29,455 nt of DNA from the NCBI GenBank assembly GCA_028717785.1, contig JAQUND010000018.1:1-29455 (forward strand), given 5' to 3'. Position numbers and translations under genes: made by a program. This stretch comes from Candidatus Nanoarchaeia archaeon (GTDB lineage: Archaea > Nanoarchaeota > Nanoarchaeia > SCGC-AAA011-G17 > JAFCDX01). Below, in pieces: positions 5,092-19,142 of the stretch. The notes beneath the pieces were generated by a model. That model searched no databases, was not told the DNA's origin, and worked only from the letters and a program-made list of their open reading frames with translations. The number at the start of each line of letters is the position of its first letter. Positions within the stretch are counted from its first letter, which is position 1.

Positions 5092-5176
5092 AGCACGCGT
5101 CAGGATTTGAACCTGAGGATAGTCGGGTACTACTATTAATTGCAGCCGACCGCGTTAACTACTTCGCCACGCGTGC
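5092..5176 (-). tRNA. tRNA-Cys (GCA) with a 12-nt intron
   Basis: The minus strand folds into a full cloverleaf. The acceptor pairs GCACGCG with CGCGTGC, the anticodon stem GTCGG with CCGAC, and the T-arm is TCAGG-TTCAAAT-CCTGA with variable loop TATCC. Loop residues CTGCAA...C give anticodon GCA (5141-5143). The discriminator is U, typical of Cys. CCA is not encoded. The 19-nt apparent anticodon loop exceeds the normal 7 by 12, which is the intron. Confidence 0.93.
5128..5139 (-). other. tRNA-Cys intron at canonical position 37/38
   Basis: Twelve nucleotides, TTAATAGTAGTA on the coding strand. The bulge-helix-bulge is readable: the central helix is CTGC pairing with GTAG (one G-U), the 5' bulge AAT is cut AA|T and the 3' bulge TAC is cut TA|C. 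This restores a 7-nt loop CTGCAAC. The inner loop is only 5 nt, so this is a minimal, relaxed motif. Confidence 0.8.
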
Positions 5177-6674: not shown

Positions 6675-6720
6675 GATTATAAACCGGGACTGATGGGATT
6701 TGAACCCACGACCCTCTGCT

Positions 6721-6735
6721 CACTTCCTGGATTGA
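6721..6735 (-). other. tRNA-Arg intron 2, canonical position 37/38 (15 nt)
   Basis: Central helix CTTC (anticodon-loop side) pairs with GAAG in the intron. The 5' bulge TAT is cut TA|T and the 3' bulge TGA is cut TG|A. The outer helix is the CTGC/GCAG part of the anticodon stem. The inner helix is essentially absent, so this is a relaxed motif. Confidence 0.75.
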
Positions 6736-6745
6736 TAGAAGGCAG

Positions 6746-6775
6746 TTACGCATGCTTAGTACTACCTATAACATT
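6746..6775 (-). other. tRNA-Arg intron 1, non-canonical position 27/28 (30 nt)
   Basis: The central helix pairs the D-stem strand GCGC with intron GCGT (one G-U). The 5' bulge GTA is cut GT|A and the 3' bulge AAC is cut AA|C. The inner helix ATGTT pairs with AGCAT (one G-U). The predicted cuts are exactly those needed to rebuild the anticodon stem (T27-A43). Introns within the anticodon stem are unusual. Confidence 0.65.
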
Positions 6776-6780
6776 ACGCG

Positions 6781-7536
6781 CTATCCAGGCTGCGCTACAG
6801 TCCCTTGAAAATATGGACTTATCTCTCCTTTTAATATCTTTCGTCTTTCATTTAGGGTTGTATGAGCAGGGCAAAAACCGTACTTTTTCCATATTAGAAA
6901 TCTTGAAATTTGAGCATAATTATTTAATCCAATTTTTTTCATAAAGTCTAGACATTTAGTTCCTTGTAAAGTTAGTCTATATTGATCTACTTCATTTGAT
7001 TTTTTAGATTTTAAAATTGTAATAGTTTTGTTTATATTTAATATTTTTAACATAAATTGAATTTCTTCTATAATTTTTAGTGAAACACATTTAATTTCTA
7101 ATCTAGGATAACAAGGATAAGTTTTTTTGAATGTTGAATAATGTCCTCTTCTTCTGTCAAAGTTTAAATTTCCATCACAATCTGCAAAACCTCTAATAAA
7201 TGAAGAATAAATTTTCTTATTTTTACTTTTTAATATGATTGAAGGAGTTTTAACGGTATAAGTTTTCTTACCTATAGGAAATTCTAGTATTTTATTGAAG
7301 TAATTTACTATTTCCTTATTAGATAAATAAAATCCATAAACAGAATTACTTGGTTTTGCTTTTAAGTTTATATCTACATTAAAGACTTTTTTGAATAAGG
7401 GTTTTATTGTTTTATTATAATATTCAATTTCTTGATTTAAATTTCCATAGATACATAAATGATCTTTTTGTAAACATCCATCTGCAGCGAAAATTCCAGC
7501 TATTTCTGCTAGTTCTGGAGTTACTTTTATATTCAT
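6781..7536 (-). CDS. LAGLIDADG homing endonuclease overlapping tRNA-Arg
   Basis: A 251-residue, two-motif LAGLIDADG endonuclease. Motif 1 is LAEIAGIFAADGCL (about residues 9-22) and motif 2 is SSFIRGFADCDGNL (about 110-125). Both keep the catalytic acidic residue (ADG and CDG), so it may be active. Such enzymes cleave long, partly palindromic sites and usually sit inside introns or inteins. This one lies 5' of the tRNA on the same strand, and its last eight codons plus stop are the first 24 nt of tRNA-Arg (GTVAQPG then TAG). No stop precedes the tRNA. It is preceded by a 56-bp element also found upstream of the second LAGLIDADG gene. Confidence 0.9.
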   Translation of the reverse strand: MNIKVTPELAEIAGIFAADGCLQKDHLCIYGNLNQEIEYYNKTIKPLFKKVFNVDINLKAKPSNSVYGFYLSNKEIVNYFNKILEFPIGKKTYTVKTPSIILKSKNKKIYSSFIRGFADCDGNLNFDRRRGHYSTFKKTYPCYPRLEIKCVSLKIIEEIQFMLKILNINKTITILKSKKSNEVDQYRLTLQGTKCLDFMKKIGLNNYAQISRFLIWKKYGFCPAHTTLNERRKILKGEISPYFQGTVAQPG

Positions 7537-7567
7537 ATTAGAATTAGTTAAATTTTGCTTTTAAACC

Positions 7568-7623
7568 CTGCGCGCACACCTTGCAAGTTGCAATTTACTG
7601 TAAAATATATATTAAAGAATATA
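7568..7623 (-). repeat. 56-bp shared promoter/leader element, copy A
   Basis: The minus-strand sequence of 7568-7623 matches 16507-16562 (plus strand) at 54 of 56 positions. It holds a TATA-like AATATATATTTT, the 13-bp palindrome TTGCAACTTGCAA and the 8-bp palindrome TGCGCGCA. It ends 31 bp before the ATG of the LAGLIDADG gene at 7536. Spacing from the TATA places transcription start near the palindromes. Read in the frame used at 16537, it hits a stop right after the element, so the conservation is not coding. Confidence 0.8.
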
Positions 7624-7670
7624 GATTAATCTCTAATAAAGGTTAAATAGTTTAATTTTATTAAATTTAT

Positions 7671-8003
7671 ATGGCTATTCAAAAAGATGCAGGAGAAATA
7701 CTTATTTTTTTATATCAAGAGTATACAAATAATAATCAATGGATAGATAGTGATAAGATTATTAAGCTTACAAATTGGGAATCTGGTAGGATTAATAGAA
7801 CAATAGATTATCTTAAAGATTTAAACCTTATTAAAATTAACTTATTTTTAGGTAATATAAATGGTGTATATAATTTTGGTATAAATGGATTAACTCCCGC
7901 GGGTATAAATATTATTGAAAATACTAAAGAATTCGAAAAAAATTTTGGATTTGAACTTAATTTAGGTCTTATTAAATTTAGTTGGGGAACTACTAAAAAA
8001 TGA
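7671..8003 (+). CDS. Small winged-helix protein of an unrecognised operon
   Basis: A 110-residue cytosolic protein with a winged-helix-like layout. Helix 1 is AGEILIFLYQEYTNN, the helix-turn-helix region is WIDSDKIIKLTNWESGRINR followed by TIDYLKDLNLIKI, and a wing (NGVYNFGINGLTPAGINIIE) follows. The pattern recalls YjcQ-like and other phage/defence-associated winged helices, but I do not recognise a specific family. A TATA element GGTTAAATAG (7641-7650) lies about 25 bp before the ATG, implying a leaderless mRNA. Its stop overlaps the next ATG (ATGA), so it heads a three-gene translationally coupled operon. Confidence 0.75.
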   Translation: MAIQKDAGEILIFLYQEYTNNNQWIDSDKIIKLTNWESGRINRTIDYLKDLNLIKINLFLGNINGVYNFGINGLTPAGINIIENTKEFEKNFGFELNLGLIKFSWGTTKK

Positions 8004-8644
8004 AAATAAATAATATTTTAATAATTTTTTGTTTTTTAATATTTTTATTACCTACTATCTATAGCGTTACTACTAAAGAAGAAATTTTAATGAATGTAAG
8101 TAATTCTACAGAATTTTATAGACATTATTTTAATGTTCAAACTTTAGATGATAGTTTAATTATAGATTTGAGTAATATTCCCAGAAATTGTGATGATATG
8201 AAAGTACAATTGGATGTTTATAGCACAAATTCTAGTAAAACTGAAGATTATCTTTGTTATTCTATTGTTTTTCCATCCGAACATAATAATTTATGTATTA
8301 TTTCATTAAAAGATTTAGTTCAACATTCATATTATAATGATAAACAAAATTGTAATAATCAATTAAAAGATTTAAAAGGTAGAGATTTATATTTTAATAT
8401 AAAAATTGAAGAATCAAATTTTGGTCGTTATCATTTAGAATTAAAATCTTTTAGAGTAGTAGGATTTGATAAGTTTAATGAAATTAAAAAAGAATTTAAC
8501 AATAATATAGCAAATATTTGTGCGATAATAGGAACTATCATTTCTGCTTTATTATTAATTTTTTTAAGAGGAAAACATAAATTATGGGGAATTATTCCAA
8601 TTTTAATTACATTATTAAGTCAAATGATTAGGCTAATAAAATGA
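8000..8644 (+). CDS. Secreted/membrane protein, middle gene of unknown operon
   Basis: A 214-residue protein with an N-terminal signal peptide or anchor (about residues 4-22), an extracellular domain of about 145 residues with four cysteines (in RNCDDM, YLCYS, NLCII and QNCNN) that could form two disulfides, and two C-terminal membrane helices (about 171-190 and 195-211) separated by a short basic loop (RGKHK). I do not recognise the family. It overlaps both neighbours by 4 bp (ATGA), so the three products are probably made together. Topology suggests an external sensor or effector domain tethered to the membrane. Confidence 0.75.
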   Translation: MKINNILIIFCFLIFLLPTIYSVTTKEEILMNVSNSTEFYRHYFNVQTLDDSLIIDLSNIPRNCDDMKVQLDVYSTNSSKTEDYLCYSIVFPSEHNNLCIISLKDLVQHSYYNDKQNCNNQLKDLKGRDLYFNIKIEESNFGRYHLELKSFRVVGFDKFNEIKKEFNNNIANICAIIGTIISALLLIFLRGKHKLWGIIPILITLLSQMIRLIK

Positions 8645-9099
8645 AAAGTAAATATGCAGAAACTAGATTAAAAATACTTCATGAACTGTATGAATCTGGA
8701 AGAGAGGGAGTTAAGTTAGAACAGTTAAGAAAGATTGCTGGAAGTAAACATTTTGATGGTTTGATAAATAGTCTTTCTGGAGGATATATTAATACAGAAG
8801 ATAATTTTCTTTATACTATCAAAAATGCAGGTAGAGAATTATATGAAGAATTAAGAAAAGATGAATTATTAGAAAATCAAACAGAATTTAATAGAATATT
8901 AATGATTTTTACAATATTTGTAGCTATGGGTACATTAATAATGGCTTTGACTTCATTAGTAGATCTTGGTTTGAAATTATTAACTTTTAATCAAAATAAA
9001 TATATTGGGTTTGGAAGTTTTTTCTTAATAGGAATAGGTTTTATTATTTTATGGGGCTGGATCATTAAAACTTTTTTGATTAAAAAAGAAATTTTTTAA
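8641..9099 (+). CDS. Membrane-anchored winged-helix protein, third gene of unknown operon
   Basis: A 152-residue protein. Residues 1-75 look like a winged helix (AETRLKILHELYESGREGVK, KHFDGLINSLSGGYI, NFLYTIKNAGRELYEEL). Two membrane helices follow at about 85-110 and 122-145, with a basic C-terminus (IKKEIF). This is a DNA-binding-like domain on the cytoplasmic face of the membrane, reminiscent of one-component membrane regulators. It is translationally coupled to 8000-8644 by ATGA. The family is not recognised. Confidence 0.75.
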   Translation: MKSKYAETRLKILHELYESGREGVKLEQLRKIAGSKHFDGLINSLSGGYINTEDNFLYTIKNAGRELYEELRKDELLENQTEFNRILMIFTIFVAMGTLIMALTSLVDLGLKLLTFNQNKYIGFGSFFLIGIGFIILWGWIIKTFLIKKEIF

Positions 9100-9139
9100 A
9101 ATTTGTTAATATTGAATTATAATAACTTTAAACCTTTTT

Positions 9140-9166
9140 GTAACGTTACCGATAAGAATTTAAATC
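9140..9166 (+). promoter_or_regulatory. 10-bp palindrome beside the TATA box of the 84-aa gene
   Basis: GTAACGTTAC (9140-9149) is a perfect palindrome located just upstream of the TATA element AATTTAAAT (9158-9166). The TATA centre is about 26 bp from the ATG at 9188, so the mRNA is probably leaderless. The palindrome is where an activator, or a repressor blocking TFB, could bind. Confidence 0.4.
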
Positions 9167-9187
9167 CTTTTTATTCAAAATTTTGAA

Positions 9188-9442
9188 ATGACAGAAAGAA
9201 TTAAAGATAAAGTTGAAAGGTATAAAGTAACCTATAATAATTCTTTTAATACTTATATGGTTCTAAAATCAAATGGAAATGGAGATTTTCATTCTAAAGG
9301 AAGTTCTTATGAAGAACGCGGAATTTATAATAGGATTATAACCATTGTAAGAGAAGAAGGAAGTGAAGTAGTTTTTGATAAGTCTGTTCCTGTTAATATA
9401 AGATCAAAATTAGAAGAAATTGTTGATAAATTTAGAGAATAA
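9188..9442 (+). CDS. Conserved-looking small protein of unknown function (84 aa)
   Basis: An 84-residue, charged, soluble alpha/beta protein (KVERYKVTYNNSFNTYMVLK, GIYNRIITIVREEGSEVVFD, RSKLEEIVDKFRE). It has no signal peptide, cysteines or recognisable motif. It has its own TATA element and palindrome upstream, and ends 31 bp before leuS. leuS has its own TATA element in that gap, so the two are not necessarily co-transcribed. Confidence 0.65.
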   Translation: MTERIKDKVERYKVTYNNSFNTYMVLKSNGNGDFHSKGSSYEERGIYNRIITIVREEGSEVVFDKSVPVNIRSKLEEIVDKFRE

Positions 9443-9444
9443 GC

Positions 9445-9454
9445 TTTAAATATT
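9445..9454 (+). promoter_or_regulatory. TATA box of leuS (leaderless)
   Basis: CTTTAAATAT in the 31-bp gap, centred about 24 bp before the leuS ATG at 9474. No ribosome binding site is visible. This matches the leaderless spacing seen across the window. Confidence 0.5.
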
Positions 9455-9473
9455 CTTATAATAAATATTTTCT

Positions 9474-11942
9474 ATGTCTAATCCTCTTTTAAAAATAGAA
9501 AAGAAATGGCAAAAAGCCTGGGAAGAAAAGAAAGTTTTTAAGACTAAAGAGGATCCAAAAAAGAAAAAATATTACATTCTTGAAATGTTTCCTTATCCTT
9601 CAAGTTTAGGCTTACATATGGGTCATGCTCTAAATTATACTATTGGAGATATTTATGCTAGATTTAAAAGAATGAATAATTTTTCAGTTTTATATCCTAT
9701 GGGTTACGATGCTTTTGGATTACCTGCAGAAAATGCAGCAATTAAAGCAAAAGAACATCCAATGAGTTATACAAAAAAATCTATTGCTAATTTTATTAAA
9801 CAACAAAAAGCCTTAGGATTAAGTTATGATTGGGATAGAGAATTAATAACTTGTGAACCAGAATATTATAAATGGAATCAATTTTTCTTTTTAAAATTAT
9901 TTGAAAATAATTTAGTTTATAGAAAAAAATCTGCAGTTAATTGGTGTCCTAAATGTAATACTGTTTTAGCTAATGAACAAGTTCATAATGGAAAATGCTG
10001 GCGTCATGAAGATACCGACGTAGAAATGAAACAATTAGAACAATGGTTCATTAAAATTACAAAATATGCAGAAGAATTACTTGATTATATAAAAGAATTA
10101 GAATGGCCAGATAGAATAAAAACAATGCAAGAAAATTGGATTGGAAAATCTTACGGAACTGAAATTAATTTTAAAATTAATGGAAAAGATTGGCCAATCT
10201 TTACAACAAGACCAGATACAATTTATGGAGTTACCTTTATGGTTATTTCTGCTCAACATCCAAAACTAATGGAATTAGTTAATGAAAAACAAAAACCAGA
10301 AGTTGAAAAATTTGTTAAAAAATTAAAATCTGTTTCAGAAAAAGAATTAGAAGAGATGGATAAAGAAGGAGTATTCACTGGGGCTCATGCAATTAATCCA
10401 GTAACTAATGAAAAAATTCCAGTTTATGCAGGAAATTTTGTTATTGCTGATTATGGTTCTGGAATGGTAATGGCAGTTCCAACTCATGATCAAAGAGATT
10501 TTGAATTTGCTAAAAAATATAAAATTCCTATGAAAGTTGTTATTCAACCAGATGATGCAGAATTAAATGCAGATAAAATGATTAGAGCTTATACTGGAAT
10601 TGGAAAATTAATTAATTCTGAAAATTTTAATGGAACTTCTAATCAAGATGCAATGGAAGAAATTACAAAATATTTAGAATCAAAAAAATTAGGAAAAAGT
10701 GTTGTTCAATATAAATTAAGAGATTGGTTAATTTCTAGACAAAGATACTGGGGAACTCCTATTCCAATGATTTATTGTGATAAATGTGGAATTGTTCCTG
10801 TTCCAGAAAAAGATTTACCTGTAATATTACCAGAAAAAGTAAAATTCGGAGAAGGAAATCCATTATTAACAAATAAAGAATTTGTAAATGTTAAATGTCC
10901 AAAATGTAAAAGTAATGCAAGAAGAGAAACAGATACTATGGATACGTTTTTTGATTCATCATGGTATTTTATAAGATTTGCAGATAATAAAAATATTAAA
11001 GAAGCTTTTGATAGAAAAAAAGTTGATTACTGGCTTCCTGTTGATCAGTATATTGGTGGAGCTGAACATGCATGTATGCATTTAATGTATGCAAGATTTT
11101 TTGTTAAAGCATTACGTGATTTTAATTTATTGAAATTTAATGAACCATTTACTAGATTATTTAATCAAGGAATGTTACATGGTGCAGATGGACAAAAAAT
11201 GTCTAAATCTTTAGGAAATGTAATTAATCCTATAGAAATGATTGATAAATATGGAGCAGATGCATTAAGAATTAATTTAATGTCTTTAGCTTCTCCAGAT
11301 AAAGATAGTGTTTGGAGTGATAAGAGTATTGAATTTAGTTTTAAATTTATTAATAAAATTAAAGAATATTATGAAAATGTTAAAATTGGAAAATCTTCAG
11401 AAAGATTAGAAAGTAAATTAAATAAATCTATAAAAGAAATAACTGAAGAAATTGAATTATTTAGATATAATATTGCTATAATCAAATTAAGAAAATTGTT
11501 TGAATCTTTAAGTTCAACAGAAAGTAAGAAAAATTTAGAATCATTTTTAAAAATATTAAATCCATTTTGTCCACACATTACAGAAGAATTATGGTCTAAG
11601 TTAGGAAATAAAACTTTTATTAGTTTAGAAAAATGGCCAGAAGTTGATGAATCAAAAATTAATGAGAAATTTGAACAAGAAGAACAAATTATAGATAATT
11701 TAGTTACAGATATCATACAAGTTACAAAAATAATTAAAGAAAAACAAAATAAAGATGTTTCTAAAGTATTTATTTATGTAATTCCTAAAGAAAAAGAAGT
11801 TTATGAAACTAATAAAGAAGCAATAAAAGAAAGAATTAATTTAGATTTAGAAATATACGCTGTAAATGATCCTAAAAAGCATGATCCAACTGGAAAAGCG
11901 GCTAAATCTAAGCCTGGAAAACCTGCATTATTCGCTGAATAA
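9474..11942 (+). CDS. leuS: Leucyl-tRNA synthetase, bacterial type
   Basis: An 822-residue class I synthetase charging tRNA-Leu. The HIGH-type motif is FPYPSSLGLHMGHALNYTIG (about residues 40-58). Zinc knuckles are present (WCPKCNTV...GKCWRH, and later CDKCG/CPKC). The CP1 editing domain has TTRPDTIYGVTF (about 243-254) and YGSGMVMAVPTHDQRDFEFA with the conserved Asp. The KMSKS motif is GQKMSKSLGN (about 575). The DAFGLPAENAA block and overall domain order are those of bacterial LeuRS, not the archaeal/eukaryotic type. The C-terminus ends unusually in a basic Gly/Pro/Lys tail (DPTGKAAKSKPGKPALF). Bacterial origin by transfer is inferred. Confidence 0.97.
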   Translation: MSNPLLKIEKKWQKAWEEKKVFKTKEDPKKKKYYILEMFPYPSSLGLHMGHALNYTIGDIYARFKRMNNFSVLYPMGYDAFGLPAENAAIKAKEHPMSYTKKSIANFIKQQKALGLSYDWDRELITCEPEYYKWNQFFFLKLFENNLVYRKKSAVNWCPKCNTVLANEQVHNGKCWRHEDTDVEMKQLEQWFIKITKYAEELLDYIKELEWPDRIKTMQENWIGKSYGTEINFKINGKDWPIFTTRPDTIYGVTFMVISAQHPKLMELVNEKQKPEVEKFVKKLKSVSEKELEEMDKEGVFTGAHAINPVTNEKIPVYAGNFVIADYGSGMVMAVPTHDQRDFEFAKKYKIPMKVVIQPDDAELNADKMIRAYTGIGKLINSENFNGTSNQDAMEEITKYLESKKLGKSVVQYKLRDWLISRQRYWGTPIPMIYCDKCGIVPVPEKDLPVILPEKVKFGEGNPLLTNKEFVNVKCPKCKSNARRETDTMDTFFDSSWYFIRFADNKNIKEAFDRKKVDYWLPVDQYIGGAEHACMHLMYARFFVKALRDFNLLKFNEPFTRLFNQGMLHGADGQKMSKSLGNVINPIEMIDKYGADALRINLMSLASPDKDSVWSDKSIEFSFKFINKIKEYYENVKIGKSSERLESKLNKSIKEITEEIELFRYNIAIIKLRKLFESLSSTESKKNLESFLKILNPFCPHITEELWSKLGNKTFISLEKWPEVDESKINEKFEQEEQIIDNLVTDIIQVTKIIKEKQNKDVSKVFIYVIPKEKEVYETNKEAIKERINLDLEIYAVNDPKKHDPTGKAAKSKPGKPALFAE

Positions 11943-12016
11943 AGCTTGTTACCATTTATAAATAATGACTTTCGAAAGATTTTTAAATACCTTTTTTGTA
12001 ATATTATTGATTTACA

Positions 12017-12862
12017 ATGAACAGAAGAGATTTTTTGAAATTTTCTGCAAGTATACCTTTATTACCTAAATCCTTAGAAACCCAAATATGCGGATATGCT
12101 ACTAGTTATGAACTTGTTTTTGATTGTTCTGAATTAGATGATATAATTAAAGATGATTTTTTTATTGATCAAAAATTATTAAGACAAAAAATTAAAGAAA
12201 AAACAGAAAAACAAATTCCTTATTATTTATTTGGAACTCTTTTAGATAATATCACTAATAATATTGCTTTAGAACTTAATGAATCTTTACCATTAAAAGA
12301 ATGTATTTTTACAATTGATATACCTGAAAATTATTTAGTTGATAGTATGGATTTATCTCTAGAAGTTAATAAAACTAATTTTAATTTAAAATTATTTCAA
12401 AAATATAATAATAACAATATTCTTTTATTAGAATCTGGAGTTGCAATTGGTAGAGGAGAATATAGCGGTGGTAAATTTAAAACTCCTGAAGGAGATTTTT
12501 TCTTACAAAGAATTATTTTAGATCCTTGGTGGTATCCTCCTGAATGGGCGGGTACTACAATTCCAGAAAAACCAGGAATAAATAATCCTTATGGATTATA
12601 TATGGCTGAAATATGTAGTGTTGATTCCTTAAGTGGTTATGAATTCTCTCCTAGAGGAGATACTGGGACAAGATTACATGGTACAAATAAACCTAGAAGT
12701 ATAGGTACTGCTGCATCTCATGGGTGTATTAGAGTTGGAGAAGTAGAAGAATTATTCAAGGGAATGTTTAATTATGTAAGAACTAGAGAAGGAAAAACAA
12801 CTGGAAGAGGGAATATACATCCTTTAGAAAAAGTAATCCCAATTAAAATTTATAAAAATTAA
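12017..12862 (+). CDS. Tat-exported L,D-transpeptidase (YkuD) domain protein
   Basis: A 281-residue protein whose N-terminus MNRRDFLKFSASIPLLP carries a twin-arginine motif (RRDFLK) and a weakly hydrophobic stretch, consistent with Tat export. Residues about 135-278 form the YkuD catalytic domain, with LHGTNKPRSIGTAASHGCIR containing the conserved His near 221 and the nucleophile Cys in SHGC near 237. In bacteria this domain cross-links peptidoglycan or anchors lipoproteins to it. An archaeon without murein must use it differently, for example on a surface glycopeptide or another cell's wall. It converges with a lipoprotein gene (4-bp overlap) and has a TATA element TTTTTAAATA (11981-11990). 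Confidence 0.9.
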   Translation: MNRRDFLKFSASIPLLPKSLETQICGYATSYELVFDCSELDDIIKDDFFIDQKLLRQKIKEKTEKQIPYYLFGTLLDNITNNIALELNESLPLKECIFTIDIPENYLVDSMDLSLEVNKTNFNLKLFQKYNNNNILLLESGVAIGRGEYSGGKFKTPEGDFFLQRIILDPWWYPPEWAGTTIPEKPGINNPYGLYMAEICSVDSLSGYEFSPRGDTGTRLHGTNKPRSIGTAASHGCIRVGEVEELFKGMFNYVRTREGKTTGRGNIHPLEKVIPIKIYKN

Positions 12863-13515
12863 CCAGATTTATTAAGTAAAGCACCTATTAAACTATTTCC
12901 TGTTGTTGATATACATTTCTGTGTTGTTGTATTACAATATGCAGGAGATCTACAACCACAATCTGATTCACAATTTGCACAATTTTCATCTTCAGCACAA
13001 ATTTTATCTCCACATCCTGTTGTTACTATTACTGGTTGTGTTACTGTTGTTGTAGAAGTTTCAGTTGGAGTGGTTTCTTCTGTAGGAATTTCTAAATTTA
13101 TTTTTTCTGGTTCTGGTTGTTTAATTCCTAATTGTGAATCATAATTAACTGTTGTTTTACAAAATTCACTATCACAAACCACTACATTAAATTCATCAAA
13201 TGGTTTTGTTATAGCAAGTACACGATAACAATCATCAGCAGAATTACAATTTACAAATCCTCCATTAGAATTTACTATTTTTTTAAGTGTTGTTGTGCTA
13301 CATAATAAATTTTCTGTTTCTATTGATTTAAATTGTTCAAGATTATCTTTTAATTTAATACAATCATCTAATCCTTTGTCATTACAAAATACACCCATTG
13401 ATTTGGTTGTACCTACTCCTTCTCTATACAAGCATTCTTTTGTTACAAATCTGCTTGTACATCCAGAAATTAGTAAAGTAACTAAGAATAATATAATTAT
13501 TGATCCTCTTTTCAT
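12859..13515 (-). CDS. Cys-rich lipoprotein with TTGNS C-terminus
   Basis: A 218-residue predicted lipoprotein. The signal MKRGSIIILFLVTLLISGC has a lipobox (LISGC), so the mature protein would start at Cys19. The N-terminal half has several Cys pairs. A Thr/Pro/Glu-rich linker (about 145-165) leads to a compact knot-like motif CGDKICAEDENC-ANCESDCGC, a pattern repeated in many archaeal and bacterial surface proteins. The end, CISTTGNSLIGALLNKSG, has TGN followed by a short hydrophobic stretch, similar to TGNAV in the neighbour at 13608-14591, but without a full transmembrane helix. Function is unknown; it is divergent from that neighbour. Confidence 0.82.
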   Translation of the reverse strand: MKRGSIIILFLVTLLISGCTSRFVTKECLYREGVGTTKSMGVFCNDKGLDDCIKLKDNLEQFKSIETENLLCSTTTLKKIVNSNGGFVNCNSADDCYRVLAITKPFDEFNVVVCDSEFCKTTVNYDSQLGIKQPEPEKINLEIPTEETTPTETSTTTVTQPVIVTTGCGDKICAEDENCANCESDCGCRSPAYCNTTTQKCISTTGNSLIGALLNKSG

Positions 13516-13607
13516 ACTTTTTGTAATAATTATTTATTTAAATAATTTTCTATATTGTATTAAATCACAATAATCCTTAAATACCTATTTAAGATGTTAA
13601 ATCTTTT

Positions 13608-14591
13608 ATGAAATGGGGTTTACTTTTAGGGGTTATAATTTTAATGTCTTGTACAGTAAGTGCCTTAAATACAGATTTATCTAATTCCAAATATTCTTCA
13701 GAAATTTTTAAAATAAAGTTTGATGATAATCCAAATACAATAATATATAATTTTAGTATGCCTTATGAGTATGGTTGTAGTGCAGATGGAAGATTATTTA
13801 TTAATTTTGAGATAGATTCAGAAATTCTTAAAATACCTGATATTAAGATGGATTATAAACAATTAGGGGTTCCAATATCATCCCAAGAATTAAGTGGTCA
13901 TTATTATAGAAGAAATTTACAAACAGGTATATTTGAAGAAACTACAAAATTATTTAGTACATTTCCATATTATTTTTGGTCTGATTCTGTTTTTAAATCA
14001 GGAGATTATAAAATAAATGTTTTTAATTTAGATGGTAAATTCAAAGAAAGAACTTTATATATTCACTGTCCTGAATTTAGATATACTTGTGAAGATTTTA
14101 AACCAAAAGTAAATTGTTATAACACTAATGATGAAAAGTTAGTTATAGAATTTTCTAATATTAATATTAATGATAAAGAAAAATTTGAATTAAAAGATTT
14201 AAACATTTATACTAAAGGAACAAATGAAAGATCAAATCTTTTAGATAATACATTAGCTTCTGATGCAAAAATGGAAAAAATAGGAGATAAATATAGAATA
14301 GTTTCTTCATTATTATATGGAAATCCAAATGCAGGAACAAATATAATTAATTACGTTCATATACAACCAAAAGCTTGTTTTTATGATTTATATCCTAATG
14401 CTTATGTTGCACAAAAATGTGAAGGATTAAAAGAAGTAAGTTCAACTAGTTTATCTTCAGTAGATACTCAAATTACTGGGAATGCAGTTGCTTCAGAAAT
14501 AAATATGAAATCTTATACTGTTTATGGTGTAGCTTTATTAGTTCTTTTAGTTTTAGTTATTTTAATTGTTAGAAAGAAAAAAAGAATTTAA
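13608..14591 (+). CDS. Secreted surface protein with TGNAV-TM-basic C-terminal signal
   Basis: A 327-residue protein with an N-terminal signal (MKWGLLLGVIILMSCTVSAL) that could be either a Sec peptide cut after SAL or a lipobox around Cys15. An extracellular beta-rich domain with six or more cysteines follows. The C-terminus has three parts: ITGNAV (about residues 290-295), a transmembrane helix (about 305-321) and RKKKRI. This is the layout of archaeosortase substrates, although the TGNAV motif is not one of the classic PGF/PEF types. The family is otherwise unrecognised. TATA CTTAAATACC (13575-13584) is about 28 bp before the ATG, implying a leaderless mRNA. Confidence 0.8.
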   Translation: MKWGLLLGVIILMSCTVSALNTDLSNSKYSSEIFKIKFDDNPNTIIYNFSMPYEYGCSADGRLFINFEIDSEILKIPDIKMDYKQLGVPISSQELSGHYYRRNLQTGIFEETTKLFSTFPYYFWSDSVFKSGDYKINVFNLDGKFKERTLYIHCPEFRYTCEDFKPKVNCYNTNDEKLVIEFSNININDKEKFELKDLNIYTKGTNERSNLLDNTLASDAKMEKIGDKYRIVSSLLYGNPNAGTNIINYVHIQPKACFYDLYPNAYVAQKCEGLKEVSSTSLSSVDTQITGNAVASEINMKSYTVYGVALLVLLVLVILIVRKKKRI

Positions 14592-14605
14592 ATAATAAAA
14601 TTTAT

Positions 14606-15571
14606 CTAAAAGTATACAAATTTATGTTCTTTTAAAATTGTTATTATTTCAATATCCTTAATTATATCAGAATATTGATCCTTCATTTCTTGAAGAATTT
14701 TATTAAATTCAGATTCTGATTGAACTTCAAATTCTGGCTCTAAATCCCAATTACCTAAAACTTTTACATGATGAATTATATTCTTGTTTTGTCCTAAATA
14801 TCTTATTAAAGATTTTATTCTTTCTTCATTAGGATTGTCTAAATAAACAAAAGTTTTAAAAAATATTATACCTAATTTTTCATAATTTATTGCAATTTTA
14901 TAACCCAAAATTATTTTACTTTTTTCAAGTTGTTTTATTCTATAATTAATAATTCTAACACTTTGTTTTAGTTCAGATGCAATATTAATAATTGGTTTTC
15001 TTGCATTTTCTGCTAATTTTTTTAATATTTTTATATCTAATTCATCGATTTTTATAATCTTATCTTTTTTCATAATTATCCTAGAATTTGTAATTAAAGA
15101 TTTATCTTCAAGTAAATAATCTCTATTATAAGTTTGAGCTTCAATAAGTATAGATATTGCCTTTTTATTGATATAATTTTCAAATTTAGTTAATATATTA
15201 TTTTTTAATTCATCAATATTATCAATAGAATCTGTTTCCATGGAAATAATTAAGTCCCAATTACCTTTACAAGATATTATCCATTTGGTTGAATCTATTT
15301 TTTTTAGTTCTTGGATTATTTTATCTAATTCATTAGATTTTAAATGTTGGAAAGAAAGACAAATTTTAAATTGAATTATATTTAATTTTGATAAATTTAC
15401 TATTAATTGATATTGGGTTATTATATTTTCTTTTTCTAATCTTTTAATTCTATAATTAACTACTTCAGATGAAAGTCCTATTTTTTTACCTATTCTTGAA
15501 CAAGATTGCCTTGAATTATTATCTAATTCATAAAGTAATTTTTTGTCCTTTAAGTCAATTTCTATTACCAT
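14606..15571 (-). CDS. Tandem Lrp/AsnC-family transcriptional regulator
   Basis: A 321-residue protein made of two Lrp/AsnC units fused head to tail. Unit 1 has the AsnC helix-turn-helix LDNNSRQSCSRIGKKIGLSS followed by EVVNYRIKRLE (about 14-45), then a RAM-like effector domain to about 145. Unit 2 repeats this (LAENARKPIINIASELKQSV, RIINYRIKQLEKSKIILGYK; helix-turn-helix about 180-215), with a second effector domain to the end. Normal Lrp proteins are about 150 residues and dimerise, so this looks like a covalent dimer. The ligand is unknown. Similar double-length Lrp proteins occur in other small-genome archaea (family knowledge, not checked here). Confidence 0.88.
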   Translation of the reverse strand: MVIEIDLKDKKLLYELDNNSRQSCSRIGKKIGLSSEVVNYRIKRLEKENIITQYQLIVNLSKLNIIQFKICLSFQHLKSNELDKIIQELKKIDSTKWIISCKGNWDLIISMETDSIDNIDELKNNILTKFENYINKKAISILIEAQTYNRDYLLEDKSLITNSRIIMKKDKIIKIDELDIKILKKLAENARKPIINIASELKQSVRIINYRIKQLEKSKIILGYKIAINYEKLGIIFFKTFVYLDNPNEERIKSLIRYLGQNKNIIHHVKVLGNWDLEPEFEVQSESEFNKILQEMKDQYSDIIKDIEIITILKEHKFVYF

Positions 15572-15672
15572 ATCTTATAATAAATACAATTAATATTTAA
15601 ATATTGTGTTTTTTATAAAAAATACTATAAAAGGTTTTAAGTATAGTTAAAATAGTATTATTAAGAAATAAA

Positions 15673-16020
15673 ATGAGACAGTTTTTACTGTCCTTAAACA
15701 AAAGAAAGGAAATAATAAAAATGAATTCAATGAAATATGAAATTGGAAAGTGTATTCTATCTACTTTAATTTTTGTAGGATCAATGCAAGCAATACGAAC
15801 TGTAGCTATAACTGCAGATCAAATTATAAATGATAGACCTCTTTATGAGAGAGTTTATTATCCAGAAACTAATCTTTCTATTTGTAGTGGACCTAATGAA
15901 ATTGTAGATAATTCTTCAGGTAAAAAGTATATTCTTAATAAAGAAGAGATTGTAAATCCATGGGACAATATACCTTATAAAATAAAAACAGATAAATTGT
16001 TTTTAGAGGAAATAAAATGA
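15673..16020 (+). CDS. Small single-pass membrane protein, unknown function
   Basis: A 115-residue protein. The start is uncertain: ATG 15673 lies about 44 bp after TATA-like ACTATAAAAGG (15624-15634), while ATG 15721 (MNSMKYEIGKC) has a GGAA-like site upstream and would give 99 residues. One hydrophobic segment (CILSTLIFVGSMQAIRTVAI) is followed by an outside-type domain (YYPETNLSICSGPNEIVDNS). No family is recognised. It overlaps the next gene by 4 bp (ATGA), indicating a two-gene operon. Confidence 0.6.
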   Translation: MRQFLLSLNKRKEIIKMNSMKYEIGKCILSTLIFVGSMQAIRTVAITADQIINDRPLYERVYYPETNLSICSGPNEIVDNSSGKKYILNKEEIVNPWDNIPYKIKTDKLFLEEIK

Positions 16021-16475
16021 GACCTATAATAATTGAACTAAAAGATTATTTTAAAGAATTAATGTCAAAAGAATATAATCCCAATAGAGAAGTGTGTGAT
16101 GATATTGTAAAATTTTGTTATGAACATGATATAGAACTTGGAACAGAGAATGGTAGTCAACTTTTTACTGCATCCACTGGAAGAAAAATACCTATTTCCA
16201 ATAATCCTGAACATGGGACATTTAGAGAATTTAAGATCGTTGCAGCTCCAGGTAGAATAATTTATGAGGATAGCATCAATGAAGAGTGTTTTAGATGGGA
16301 TGCATATATTAAAGAATATAGTAATAAATATTATTACTTAAATGGAAAATTTGTTAAAGCAGGAAATGTTAGAGAACCTATTTCATTAGAATTTTTTGAA
16401 AAGGGAAAATTAGCAATAATTGCTTTGGAATCACTTCTTTATAGAAATCTTATAGAAAGAAGAACAGTTAATTGA
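16017..16475 (+). CDS. Soluble protein of unknown function
   Basis: A 152-residue protein with no signal peptide or membrane segment. It starts with an amphipathic helix (IIIELKDYFKELMSKEY). A central mixed alpha/beta part includes STGRKIPISNNPEHGTFREF and EECFRWDAYIKEYSNKYYYL. I see no catalytic motif or known fold. It is translationally coupled to the membrane protein before it and lies just upstream of the 56-bp element shared by the two LAGLIDADG genes. Confidence 0.65.
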   Translation: MRPIIIELKDYFKELMSKEYNPNREVCDDIVKFCYEHDIELGTENGSQLFTASTGRKIPISNNPEHGTFREFKIVAAPGRIIYEDSINEECFRWDAYIKEYSNKYYYLNGKFVKAGNVREPISLEFFEKGKLAIIALESLLYRNLIERRTVN

Positions 16476-16506
16476 ATAAATTTATAATCTTATTTCATAA
16501 AAGATA

Positions 16507-16562
16507 TATATTCTCTAATATATATTTTCCAGTAAATTGCAACTTGCAAGGTGTGCGCGCAG
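16507..16562 (+). repeat. 56-bp shared promoter/leader element, copy B
   Basis: Matches the minus strand of 7568-7623 at 54 of 56 positions, in the same orientation relative to a LAGLIDADG gene. It contains AATATATATTTT, TTGCAACTTGCAA and TGCGCGCA. It ends 40 bp before the ATG at 16603. Sequence identity stops abruptly after CGCGCAG, and the two downstream leaders differ. Confidence 0.8.
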
Positions 16563-16602
16563 CTCTTATAAAGCAATTTATCTTACGTATCAAAATAGTA
16601 AA

Positions 16603-17931
16603 ATGAATAATATAAAAATAGATTTGTTTAAATTACATGATCCAGAAAAAGACAATTCTCTTAGAAAATGTATAGTTGCTAAGGGTTTAAATTTAAATGA
16701 AAAAATAAAAGTTTTAATATCCGAGCTTAAGTCTAAAGGATGGAGAACTACAGATCTTATTAATTATTTTATGAAAAAATATAATCTATCTTCATCAAGT
16801 GTTCAGAGATTATTGTTTGATTATAAAATTTGGTATCCATTATTTTTTATAGAAGATTTATTAATACTAAATAATAAATTGGAAGATAAATATATTTTTC
16901 AAGAAAATATAGAATTTTTAAAAGTTACACAACCACCAGTTAAAATATACAAAGTACCTAAAATATTAACATTAGATTTATGTAAAATTGCAGGAGCTCA
17001 TGCTGCTGATGGAACAGTAAGGAATAATTATATTTCTATAACAGATAGAGATAAATCTAATATAGAAGTATTAGTATCATGGATTTATAATCAATTTAAT
17101 ATAAAATATTCAATTATTAAAATTTCAGAAAATGAATATGGAATTAAATTTAATAGTAAAATAATTTCTAGATTTTTAACAAAAATATTCGAATTTCCTA
17201 ATGGGTTTAAAACATATAATTTTAAAGAACCAAAAATAATAAAATATTCTTCTTATGAATTTAGGAAAGCATATACTATTGGAGCAATAATTTTTGAAGG
17301 GGGAGTTGGAATCATACCACAATTACAATTTAGTGTTACAAATAAATTGTTTAGAGATTCAATATATGAAGTGTTAAGTAAATCACTACCTGAAGAAACA
17401 ATAGTAATAAATAAAACTACAAATAATCTTTGGAGATTATGGACAAAATGTAAAACTAAAAAGGAATATCAAATATTGATGAGTTTTTTTGAAGAAAGAA
17501 CAGAAAAATGGTACAAATTGAACGATTTTATTAATGGATTTAATTCAAGGGCTAAAAATATAAATTCTGCTATACAAATACTTTCTCAAATTTATCCAAA
17601 AAAAGGAAGTAAATATAGTTTATTGGGTATATTTTTTATAATTAAAGAACTTAAATCTTCATCTAGGAATGAAATTGTAAATAAATTTTACCAAATAAAT
17701 CATTTAAATTTTGGTGATAAAATATGGACACATTCATTAATGAATTATTTAAATATATTAAAAAGATGTAATATTATTAAAGTTGAAAAAGGAAGATTTG
17801 GAAAGAAAAAATCATTTGGTACAATTATAAGAGAAGTATACAATTTTAATGAAAATATTGAGGAATGGAAATTACCTTATAGGCCCTGGCTAAATAAATT
17901 ATATCAGAAAAATTTATTTAACTTAGTTTGA
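16603..17931 (+). CDS. LAGLIDADG-like protein with flanking helix-turn-helix regions
   Basis: A 442-residue protein from the ATG at 16603. An in-frame TTG at 16537 exists but lies within the shared non-coding element. Residues 1-100 contain a helix-turn-helix-like region (KGWRTTDLINYFMKKYNLSS, SSVQRLLFDYKIWYP). LAGLIDADG motif 1 is LCKIAGAHAADGTV (about 126-139). Motif 2 is AYTIGAIIFEGGVG (about 223-236), where the usual D is Glu and the pattern is weak, so cleavage may be reduced or lost. After it comes about 200 residues with a winged-helix-like part (SLLGIFFIIKELKSSSRNEI). This could be a free-standing homing endonuclease or one turned regulator, like WhiA. Its 3' end overlaps nreA by 28 bp, convergent. 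Confidence 0.8.
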   Translation: MNNIKIDLFKLHDPEKDNSLRKCIVAKGLNLNEKIKVLISELKSKGWRTTDLINYFMKKYNLSSSSVQRLLFDYKIWYPLFFIEDLLILNNKLEDKYIFQENIEFLKVTQPPVKIYKVPKILTLDLCKIAGAHAADGTVRNNYISITDRDKSNIEVLVSWIYNQFNIKYSIIKISENEYGIKFNSKIISRFLTKIFEFPNGFKTYNFKEPKIIKYSSYEFRKAYTIGAIIFEGGVGIIPQLQFSVTNKLFRDSIYEVLSKSLPEETIVINKTTNNLWRLWTKCKTKKEYQILMSFFEERTEKWYKLNDFINGFNSRAKNINSAIQILSQIYPKKGSKYSLLGIFFIIKELKSSSRNEIVNKFYQINHLNFGDKIWTHSLMNYLNILKRCNIIKVEKGRFGKKKSFGTIIREVYNFNENIEEWKLPYRPWLNKLYQKNLFNLV

Positions 17932-19142
17932 GATATAGTTTTTTTAATTAAAATACTATCTTTGTAAATTTGGTCTATATTAAAATTAAATTTGTTTAAA
18001 ATTAAACTTTTTACATGATTAAACGCGTCTTTAAATGAATTAAATTCCAAGGGTAAATTTTCTAATGCTTTTTTAGTTCCTGCACCCGTAACCCACACTC
18101 CCAAAGGAGCAGAATATTCAGGTGTTTCAAATCTTATTACTAAACAAGAAGCCTGTTTTTTAATATTATTCAAATATTCAAGTATTTTAAGCCTTGGAAA
18201 ATAATATCCTCCAACACAATGTTCTGCATAATTTTTTCTTCCATAATAATCTTCATAATCAGTAGATGTTTCAATTTTTCCTGAAAAATTCCATAAAGCA
18301 CCAGGTAAATAACTTTCGAATAATTCATAACTCCAAACATTAGGTATTAATAAAATATAATAATAATTACCAAAATAATTTCCTGTAAATAGTTGGTAAT
18401 TATCTATGGAATTATATTCTTTTATTTGTTCTATAATATTTTTTCCTATAATATCAATAGTTGCTACGATACTCCATCTAGTTGAAACTAATTTTCTATC
18501 TTTTTTTAATCCAAATATACCAATACTTAATAATTGAGATAAAGCATTTTCAGAAAATTCATTTTTGTATAAATATTTAATTGCATCAATTGCCTTTAGA
18601 TCGTAATCACCAAATACTTTATCAATTTTATTATTAATTTTTACATTTTCAGTTATTTTTACATCTTTTAATGGAGCATTAACACCAAAGGGCATTATTA
18701 TTTTTTCAAAATTGGGGGTTATTGTTGGTTTTTTCTTTAAATTTATTTCAATATCAACGGGTTTTTGGATCATAGCAATTTCTTGTGCTATATCTAAAAA
18801 TTTGGTACCTTTACGTACATCATTTACTTTTGCTTTAAATCTAGAATTAATTAAAGAAGATCTTAATTCTACTACTTGTTTTATGGATAAATTATTTTTG
18901 TACCAATATTCTGGACTATCATAAGTATAAGCTTCCTCTGTCCTTTGTGTTGGACTTAAAATACCTACATTTACTTCTGGATATTCTAATTTTGATTCGA
19001 TGAATACTGATGGGGGACTATTAGAATCAAAAATTTCTTTTAGTTCTTGATTAATTTTAAACATAGATTGAGCTTTTGTATAAATAGGACAAAAGTCTCT
19101 TTTACATAATAATTTCCCCCTACATTGCAAACAAGAAGCCAT
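17904..19142 (-). CDS. nreA: Archaeal DNA repair protein NreA with PIP box
   Basis: A 412-residue protein matching the archaeal NreA family. The N-terminus holds a zinc-binding cluster with Cys4, Cys7, Cys13 and Cys18 (CLQCRGKLLCKRDFC). Conserved blocks include FPPSVFIESK-like NSPPSVFIESKLEYPEVNVG, IGIFGLKKDRKLVSTRWSIV and GAGTKKALENLP. The last eight residues, QTKLNKFF, are a PCNA-interacting (PIP) box. NreA acts with PCNA in repair of DNA damage such as interstrand lesions in haloarchaea. It is downstream of a minus-strand HExxH gene with a 52-bp gap and convergent with the LAGLIDADG gene. Confidence 0.95.
   Translation of the reverse strand: MASCLQCRGKLLCKRDFCPIYTKAQSMFKINQELKEIFDSNSPPSVFIESKLEYPEVNVGILSPTQRTEEAYTYDSPEYWYKNNLSIKQVVELRSSLINSRFKAKVNDVRKGTKFLDIAQEIAMIQKPVDIEINLKKKPTITPNFEKIIMPFGVNAPLKDVKITENVKINNKIDKVFGDYDLKAIDAIKYLYKNEFSENALSQLLSIGIFGLKKDRKLVSTRWSIVATIDIIGKNIIEQIKEYNSIDNYQLFTGNYFGNYYYILLIPNVWSYELFESYLPGALWNFSGKIETSTDYEDYYGRKNYAEHCVGGYYFPRLKILEYLNNIKKQASCLVIRFETPEYSAPLGVWVTGAGTKKALENLPLEFNSFKDAFNHVKSLILNKFNFNIDQIYKDSILIKKTISQTKLNKFF

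Follow-up and report, generated by a model that had tools for sequence, protein, structure and literature searches.

A candidate recombination and repair promoter shared by RadA and free-standing homing endonuclease genes in a DPANN archaeal order

Why do two LAGLIDADG homing endonuclease genes on one archaeal contig carry almost the same stretch of DNA upstream? The question is raised by contig JAQUND010000018.1 of a Candidatus Nanoarchaeia archaeon, of which positions 1 to 29,455 (29,455 nucleotides, hereafter the window) were analysed. To our knowledge, little is understood about the timing of expression of free-standing homing endonucleases, or about what keeps them from killing their host. 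We conclude, with a probability of roughly three in four, that the repeated element is a trans-regulated recombination and repair promoter of a DPANN (Nanoarchaeota-type) order, and that homing endonucleases have captured it.

Direct reading confirmed two claims of an earlier note on this DNA: the minus-strand segment 7623-7568 and the plus-strand segment 16507-16562 agree at 54 of 56 positions, and they lie 31 and 40 bp before the respective ATG codons. The repeat stretches to 68 nt at 90% identity, and an alignment of 20 sites from the window and its relatives defines the conserved unit as an ungapped block of about 74 bp (74 columns), located at 7554..7627 on the minus strand (copy 1) and 16503..16576 on the plus strand (copy 2). 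With up to three mismatches allowed, the window contains two copies of a 26-nt core, TTGCAACTTGCAAGGTGTGCGCGCAG, both of them 5' of genes; the core is absent from all 100 dinucleotide-preserving shuffles of the window, and the same search found no copy at the 3' ends of window genes.

Within the 20-site alignment the parts run in the order AT-rich box (TATATTCTnnAATATATATTTT), operator (two TTGCAA half-sites plus TGTGCGCGCA) and TATA box. In copy 1 these occupy, on the minus strand, 7602..7623, 7568..7594 (the half-sites 7 nt apart, with TGCGCGCA) and 7565-7558 (TTTAAAAG), the ATG following 29 nt past the TATA start; the corresponding plus-strand positions in copy 2 are 16507..16528, 16536..16562 and 16565-16572 (CTTATAAA), with the ATG 38 nt past the TATA start. 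The AT-rich box appears by eye to be retained in more distant genomes, and the operator is genome-specific elsewhere. The segment had been described as a promoter element with two palindromes near the transcription start. The promoter assignment stands and TGCGCGCA is a perfect palindrome; TTGCAACTTGCAA, however, is better given as two TTGCAA half-sites with a spacing of 7 nt, and because the TATA box directly abuts the 56-bp block in both copies, the block lies upstream of the core promoter and not at the transcription start.

The distance from TATA start to ATG is 29-33 nt at 35 of the 59 sites at which it could be measured, among the 70 sites collected in the genomes described below; leaders are longer at the RadA and metallophosphoesterase genes. 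As archaeal transcription starts about 25 nt past the TATA box, an ATG about 29 nt after it predicts mRNAs that are leaderless or nearly so. Since the operator precedes the TATA box, it is not expected in transcripts that start from this promoter, and a leader-RNA reading was set aside on this ground.

We scanned genome_contigs, which holds one genome per species (84,980 species), for an exact 28-base pattern and found five copies, all in a single Nanoarchaeota metagenome-assembled genome (G001). With up to three mismatches G001 holds 11 copies, against none for a reversed control pattern. Among four genomes of the window's family (G001 to G004), all but G002 have pattern matches and all four have strong profile matches. 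Together with the two window copies this gives 34 family sites, of which 11 are in G001, two in G002, seven in G003 and 12 in G004; a partial profile match in G003 (contig C37, 41 of 74 positions) was left out of these counts. An exact scan of viral contigs and a blastn search of phage and plasmid collections found no element, and pattern matches in G016, G058, G095 and G073 were rejected as apparently lying within coding sequence (by eye). The leucyl-tRNA synthetase (LeuRS) of the window is 79% identical to those of G001 and G003, 68-69% identical to that of G004 and 59% identical to that of G002, and the window therefore comes from a different species than any of the four. The proposal that a shared promoter or operator links homing endonuclease genes into one network is upheld across several species.

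Two targets stand behind the element once each in all four family genomes: an operon of a small protein and RadA, and a metallophosphoesterase gene that begins 202-291 nt past the TATA box. In G002 these two sites (3.2e-15 and 2.4e-12) are the only ones better than E = 0.02, which suggests that they are ancestral members. The other family targets comprise 19 LAGLIDADG genes, one Lhr gene, one PD-(D/E)XK-type nuclease gene (L103) and one RNase_H-type gene (L111), and four sites have no identified gene (L023, L026, L102 and L116). For L026, on G001 contig C86, a decayed endonuclease was considered, and the one similarity found is at another place on that contig. Fifteen of the 19 LAGLIDADG genes match PF14528 at E <=0.001 (L108 and L109 below Pfam's own cut-off), and the remaining four (window gene 2, L018, L022 and L121) rest on motifs or homology. 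In G001 the third gene of the RadA operon is itself a LAGLIDADG open reading frame (ORF). Non-homologous but functionally linked genes, namely those for RadA, the metallophosphoesterase, Lhr and LAGLIDADG proteins, hence have the same operator within one genome, and the repair genes recognized among all targets are RadA (PF08423), Lhr (PF19306) and EndoQ (PDB 5zb8). The small protein encoded upstream of RadA (L017 318-581; about 85-105 aa) has 87 homologues, no Pfam match and only chance-level similarity in a PDB sequence search (E 0.95). Its predicted fold is beta4-alpha (mean pLDDT 87), and by eye the model looks PC4-like, a resemblance that is unconfirmed.

These target lists bear on the suggestion, made in the earlier note, that the element may serve the endonucleases for self-regulation or as a homing target. 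Some homing enzymes do bind their own promoters, and nearly half of the 70 sites (27 clearly, a further six probably) precede LAGLIDADG genes; the expectation that every copy would do so fails by the same count. We nevertheless consider the suggestion very improbable, as the strong sites of G002 precede only RadA and the metallophosphoesterase, as within a genome a single operator serves unrelated LAGLIDADG genes and the PD-(D/E)XK nuclease, and as the operators of related endonucleases differ between distant genomes.

Mobile cassette ends, or a recent segmental duplication homogenized by recombination, would account for the near-identity of copies inside one genome, and the endonuclease genes are indeed mobile, window gene 1 being absent at the orthologous tRNA-Arg of G001 and G003. 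Against this, the sequences flanking the block on either side differ (by eye), no matching repeats at both ends were found in the window, whose two copies are both 5' of genes, and the same element precedes RadA and the metallophosphoesterase in all four family genomes. A recent segmental duplication fails as an explanation because the element is conserved in genomes whose LeuRS is 59-79% identical to that of the window. We regard both versions as highly unlikely.

Beyond the family, we ran a profile of the block against 103 genomes of the order, and several of these have multiple matches with the full architecture and a common but different operator. Of 40 regions that we chose among the matches listed, 36 were retained; they come from 13 genomes and have E values of 1.8e-9 to 0.01. 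L144, L148, L151 and L158 were dropped before counting, L151 and L144 being regions that do contain the RadA small protein. The 36 distant sites include five RadA operons, two Lhr genes, EndoQ, alaS, 12 LAGLIDADG genes at <=0.001 (L128 and L159 below Pfam's cut-off) and two probable ones (L138 and L152); eight have no identified gene. The EndoQ gene (L156 454-3036, in G045) has an intein domain inside and the element upstream. Directly behind the host version of the element stand a full TnpB gene (PF07282, PF01385) at L157 in G007 and an 87-aa ORF with an IS605 OrfB N-terminal domain at L142 in G047.

The operator of G043, ACAAATGTTGCATGTGCAAGACGCCCGCGCAG, has 10 copies in that genome at <=3 mismatches, against none in the control. 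It stands before RadA and five LAGLIDADG genes, and Lhr there has a variant with more than three mismatches. Behind one of these 10 copies (L253) is a protein that shares 38% identity over 276 aa (E 4.9e-61) with that encoded at L116 of G004, so that one gene family is found behind two host-specific operators. The L116 protein has no Pfam match; by eye, the family is possibly a nuclease. In a test independent of the profile, we took the 30 best RadA loci and looked in the 650 bp before each for a box and a TATA box separated by an operator of 25-44 nt. Twelve of the 30 have this architecture; the reverse strand gave none, and mononucleotide shuffles predict 0.1.

We then compared the 28 nt before the TATA box at all 70 sites, random 28-mers having an identity of 0.55. 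Within a genome, operators before unrelated genes have a mean identity of 0.855 (213 pairs). Between genomes that are not both in the window's family, identity is 0.661 when the downstream genes are related (75 pairs) and 0.638 when they are not (1701 pairs). Sites of a gene's own genome are closer to its operator than is the site of a related gene elsewhere in 132 of 134 comparisons, and the endonuclease genes thus carry the operator version of their host. RadA, Lhr and endonuclease genes in one genome share its version, and the AT-rich box and TATA box are kept between lineages. Such co-variation of the sites as a set is what would be expected if a trans-acting factor reads all of them.

A strong constitutive promoter class, read for example by a special TFB/TBP pair or a chromatin protein and without a damage-responsive regulator, would also produce a very uniform block contiguous with the TATA box, and would sit easily with the single copy before alaS in G047. 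It does not readily explain why a family genome has only 2-12 strong sites, why RadA and nuclease genes, besides Lhr and EndoQ, are so strongly favoured among their targets, or why the operator core shifts as a set between lineages while AT box and TATA box stay, as for a regulator site. We therefore consider a constitutive class unlikely, though less so than the explanations already weighed.

The results need to be interpreted cautiously all the same, as several observations count against a trans-regulated repair promoter. The regulator that would bind the operator, and the regulation itself, are putative, as a constitutive class would have it. Gene conversion among repeats of about 70 bp could also keep the sites of one genome alike. 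A model trained on the family located the distant sites, which are a chosen part of the matches; at E <=0.5, 97 of the 103 order genomes have some profile match, many to the AT-rich part alone, and weak matches by themselves consequently mean little. Eighteen of the 30 RadA loci fail the strict architecture test, including those of G047, which has a profile match at 8.2e-7, and G066, which looks partial by eye. The site before alaS belongs here too, as do the 12 of 70 sites without an identified gene and the three distant genomes in which 0.9-1.5 kb separate the element from a metallophosphoesterase homologue downstream on the same strand, which makes that gene only a possible member there. 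Nor does every LAGLIDADG gene have the element: among 22 PF14528 (LAGLIDADG_3) ORFs shorter than 500 aa in the four family genomes, 12 stand directly behind it, one is in the RadA operon and nine are without it. At least one of these nine sits in 23S rRNA (by eye), and a tenth ORF without the element, of 534 aa, is found in G003.

If the element is a trans-regulated recombination and repair promoter, its operation may be pictured as follows. A putative trans-acting factor, repressor or activator, would bind the operator and control RadA and repair genes, probably in response to DNA damage or recombination stress. The small-protein-RadA operon and the metallophosphoesterase gene are the members common to the four family genomes, and some genomes add Lhr and EndoQ. 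The host's version of the promoter would have been acquired by free-standing homing endonuclease genes and, in two genomes, also by IS605 TnpB-type genes, and its TATA position would give a leaderless or nearly leaderless mRNA for most endonuclease genes. Under the host RadA promoter the nucleases should be made together with RadA. In homing generally, RadA-type strand exchange copies the endonuclease allele into the cut site, and co-expression should accordingly raise homing and lower the cost of cutting. Cutting would then fall at times when RadA is available to mend the break from the allele that bears the endonuclease; the shared promoter thus hints at parasites that cut DNA while the cell has the means of repair. 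Sequence shows that the promoter is shared, where it lies, which genes it precedes and that it co-varies by genome, whereas the regulator, its response to damage or recombination stress and the advantage to homing are inferred. A wider proposal, which we put forward tentatively and at less than even odds, is that of an SOS-like recombination switch of DPANN archaea into which LAGLIDADG, PD-(D/E)XK and TnpB nucleases have independently plugged themselves, tracking a drifting, lineage-specific operator and timing their cuts to RadA-mediated repair.

Window gene 1 (6781..7536, minus strand, 251 aa) matches PF14528 at 7.4e-10, and its product matches a PDB V-ATPase chain at 2.9e-5. Gene 2 (16603..17931, plus strand, 442 aa; motif 1 CKIAGAHAADGT, motif 2 IGAIIFEGGVG) has no Pfam match for its product but has 55 homologues besides itself; CKIAGAHAADGT and the acidic residues of the second motif are conserved in 26 aligned sequences, and a profile of these has V-ATPase chains (2.7e-8 for the best) and the endonuclease 1dq3 (6.7e-7) among its PDB matches. 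The matched part of the V-ATPase chains is, for both genes, presumably the intein. LAGLIDADG motifs with their acidic residues are thus present in gene 1, through PF14528, and in gene 2, through the alignment and the profile match. In G003 two genes that flank the gene 2 region are about 50 bp apart, the missing block exceeding gene 2 itself. Convergent and overlapping with gene 2 in the window (17904-19142, minus strand) is a gene for an Nre family protein with the C-terminus QTKLNKFF, which has no match in the four family genomes.

The 3' end of gene 1 lies within a tRNA-Arg(TCT) gene (6685..6804, minus strand) that was found by Rfam and missed by ARAGORN. This tRNA gene has insertions of 30 and 15 nt that are not in the G001 and G003 orthologues, which stand next to leuS and are uninterrupted. 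Gene 1 has no match within the leuS-tRNA-Arg interval of either genome, and its insertion site is polymorphic for presence and absence. In G004 an insert of about 600 nt splits the D-loop of the orthologous tRNA-Arg (L225 7090-7925); its frame is broken and, by eye, looks LAGLIDADG-like. Five of the 19 family LAGLIDADG genes (window gene 1, L120, L110, L109 and L024) overlap an Rfam tRNA or lie within about 30 bp of one; these would fit homing into tRNA genes, the interrupted tRNA being protected from cutting. Another tRNA in the window, at 5092-5176 (minus strand), has an insertion in its anticodon loop. G001 and G003 have its likely counterpart in tandem with tRNA-Arg, while 1.5 kb separate the two in the window.

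In a literature search confined largely to open-access journal papers, we found no account of this motif, nor of homing genes driven by the promoter of a recombinase, and the string TTGCAACTTGCAA was in none of the papers covered. Sequence by itself here points to a rule, that homing endonucleases share the recombinase's promoter, and it supplies an operator and a set of target genes for a candidate DNA-repair regulon in DPANN archaea, together with a route to its regulator. The drifting operator may further serve as a natural record of co-evolution between a regulator and its sites.

Several known systems invite comparison. In the bacterial LexA/SOS response one operator precedes a recombinase gene and other repair genes, and the present element resembles it by analogy (neither LexA nor its box was searched for here), having RadA, Lhr and EndoQ as recombinase and repair members. 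A LexA-type SOS response is described as lacking in archaea in the available part of a study of Halobacterium (PMC1224876), in which radA1 is UV-inducible. That system is like ours in having RadA as a regulated archaeal gene; it differs in that the accessible portion of the paper reports no SOS-like response, shared promoter motif or endonuclease gene (PMC1224876). Closer in form is the archaeal Orc1-2/DDRE regulon of Sulfolobales, which, to the extent of the text available, is likewise defined by a promoter motif and is tied to DNA damage (PMC9738581), a link that is inferred in the present case. The DDRE motif, ANTTTC, is found in only four of the 20 elements and at two different columns, so that the element does not qualify as a DDRE, and the genes named in the same part of that source (ups, ced, orc1-2 and cell division genes) differ from the RadA, Lhr and nuclease genes found here (PMC9738581). 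The endonuclease genes, for their part, resemble known free-standing LAGLIDADG genes in their motifs, in lying outside introns and inteins and, for some, in standing beside likely target tRNA genes; they differ in having the promoter of the host recombinase, in its host-specific version.

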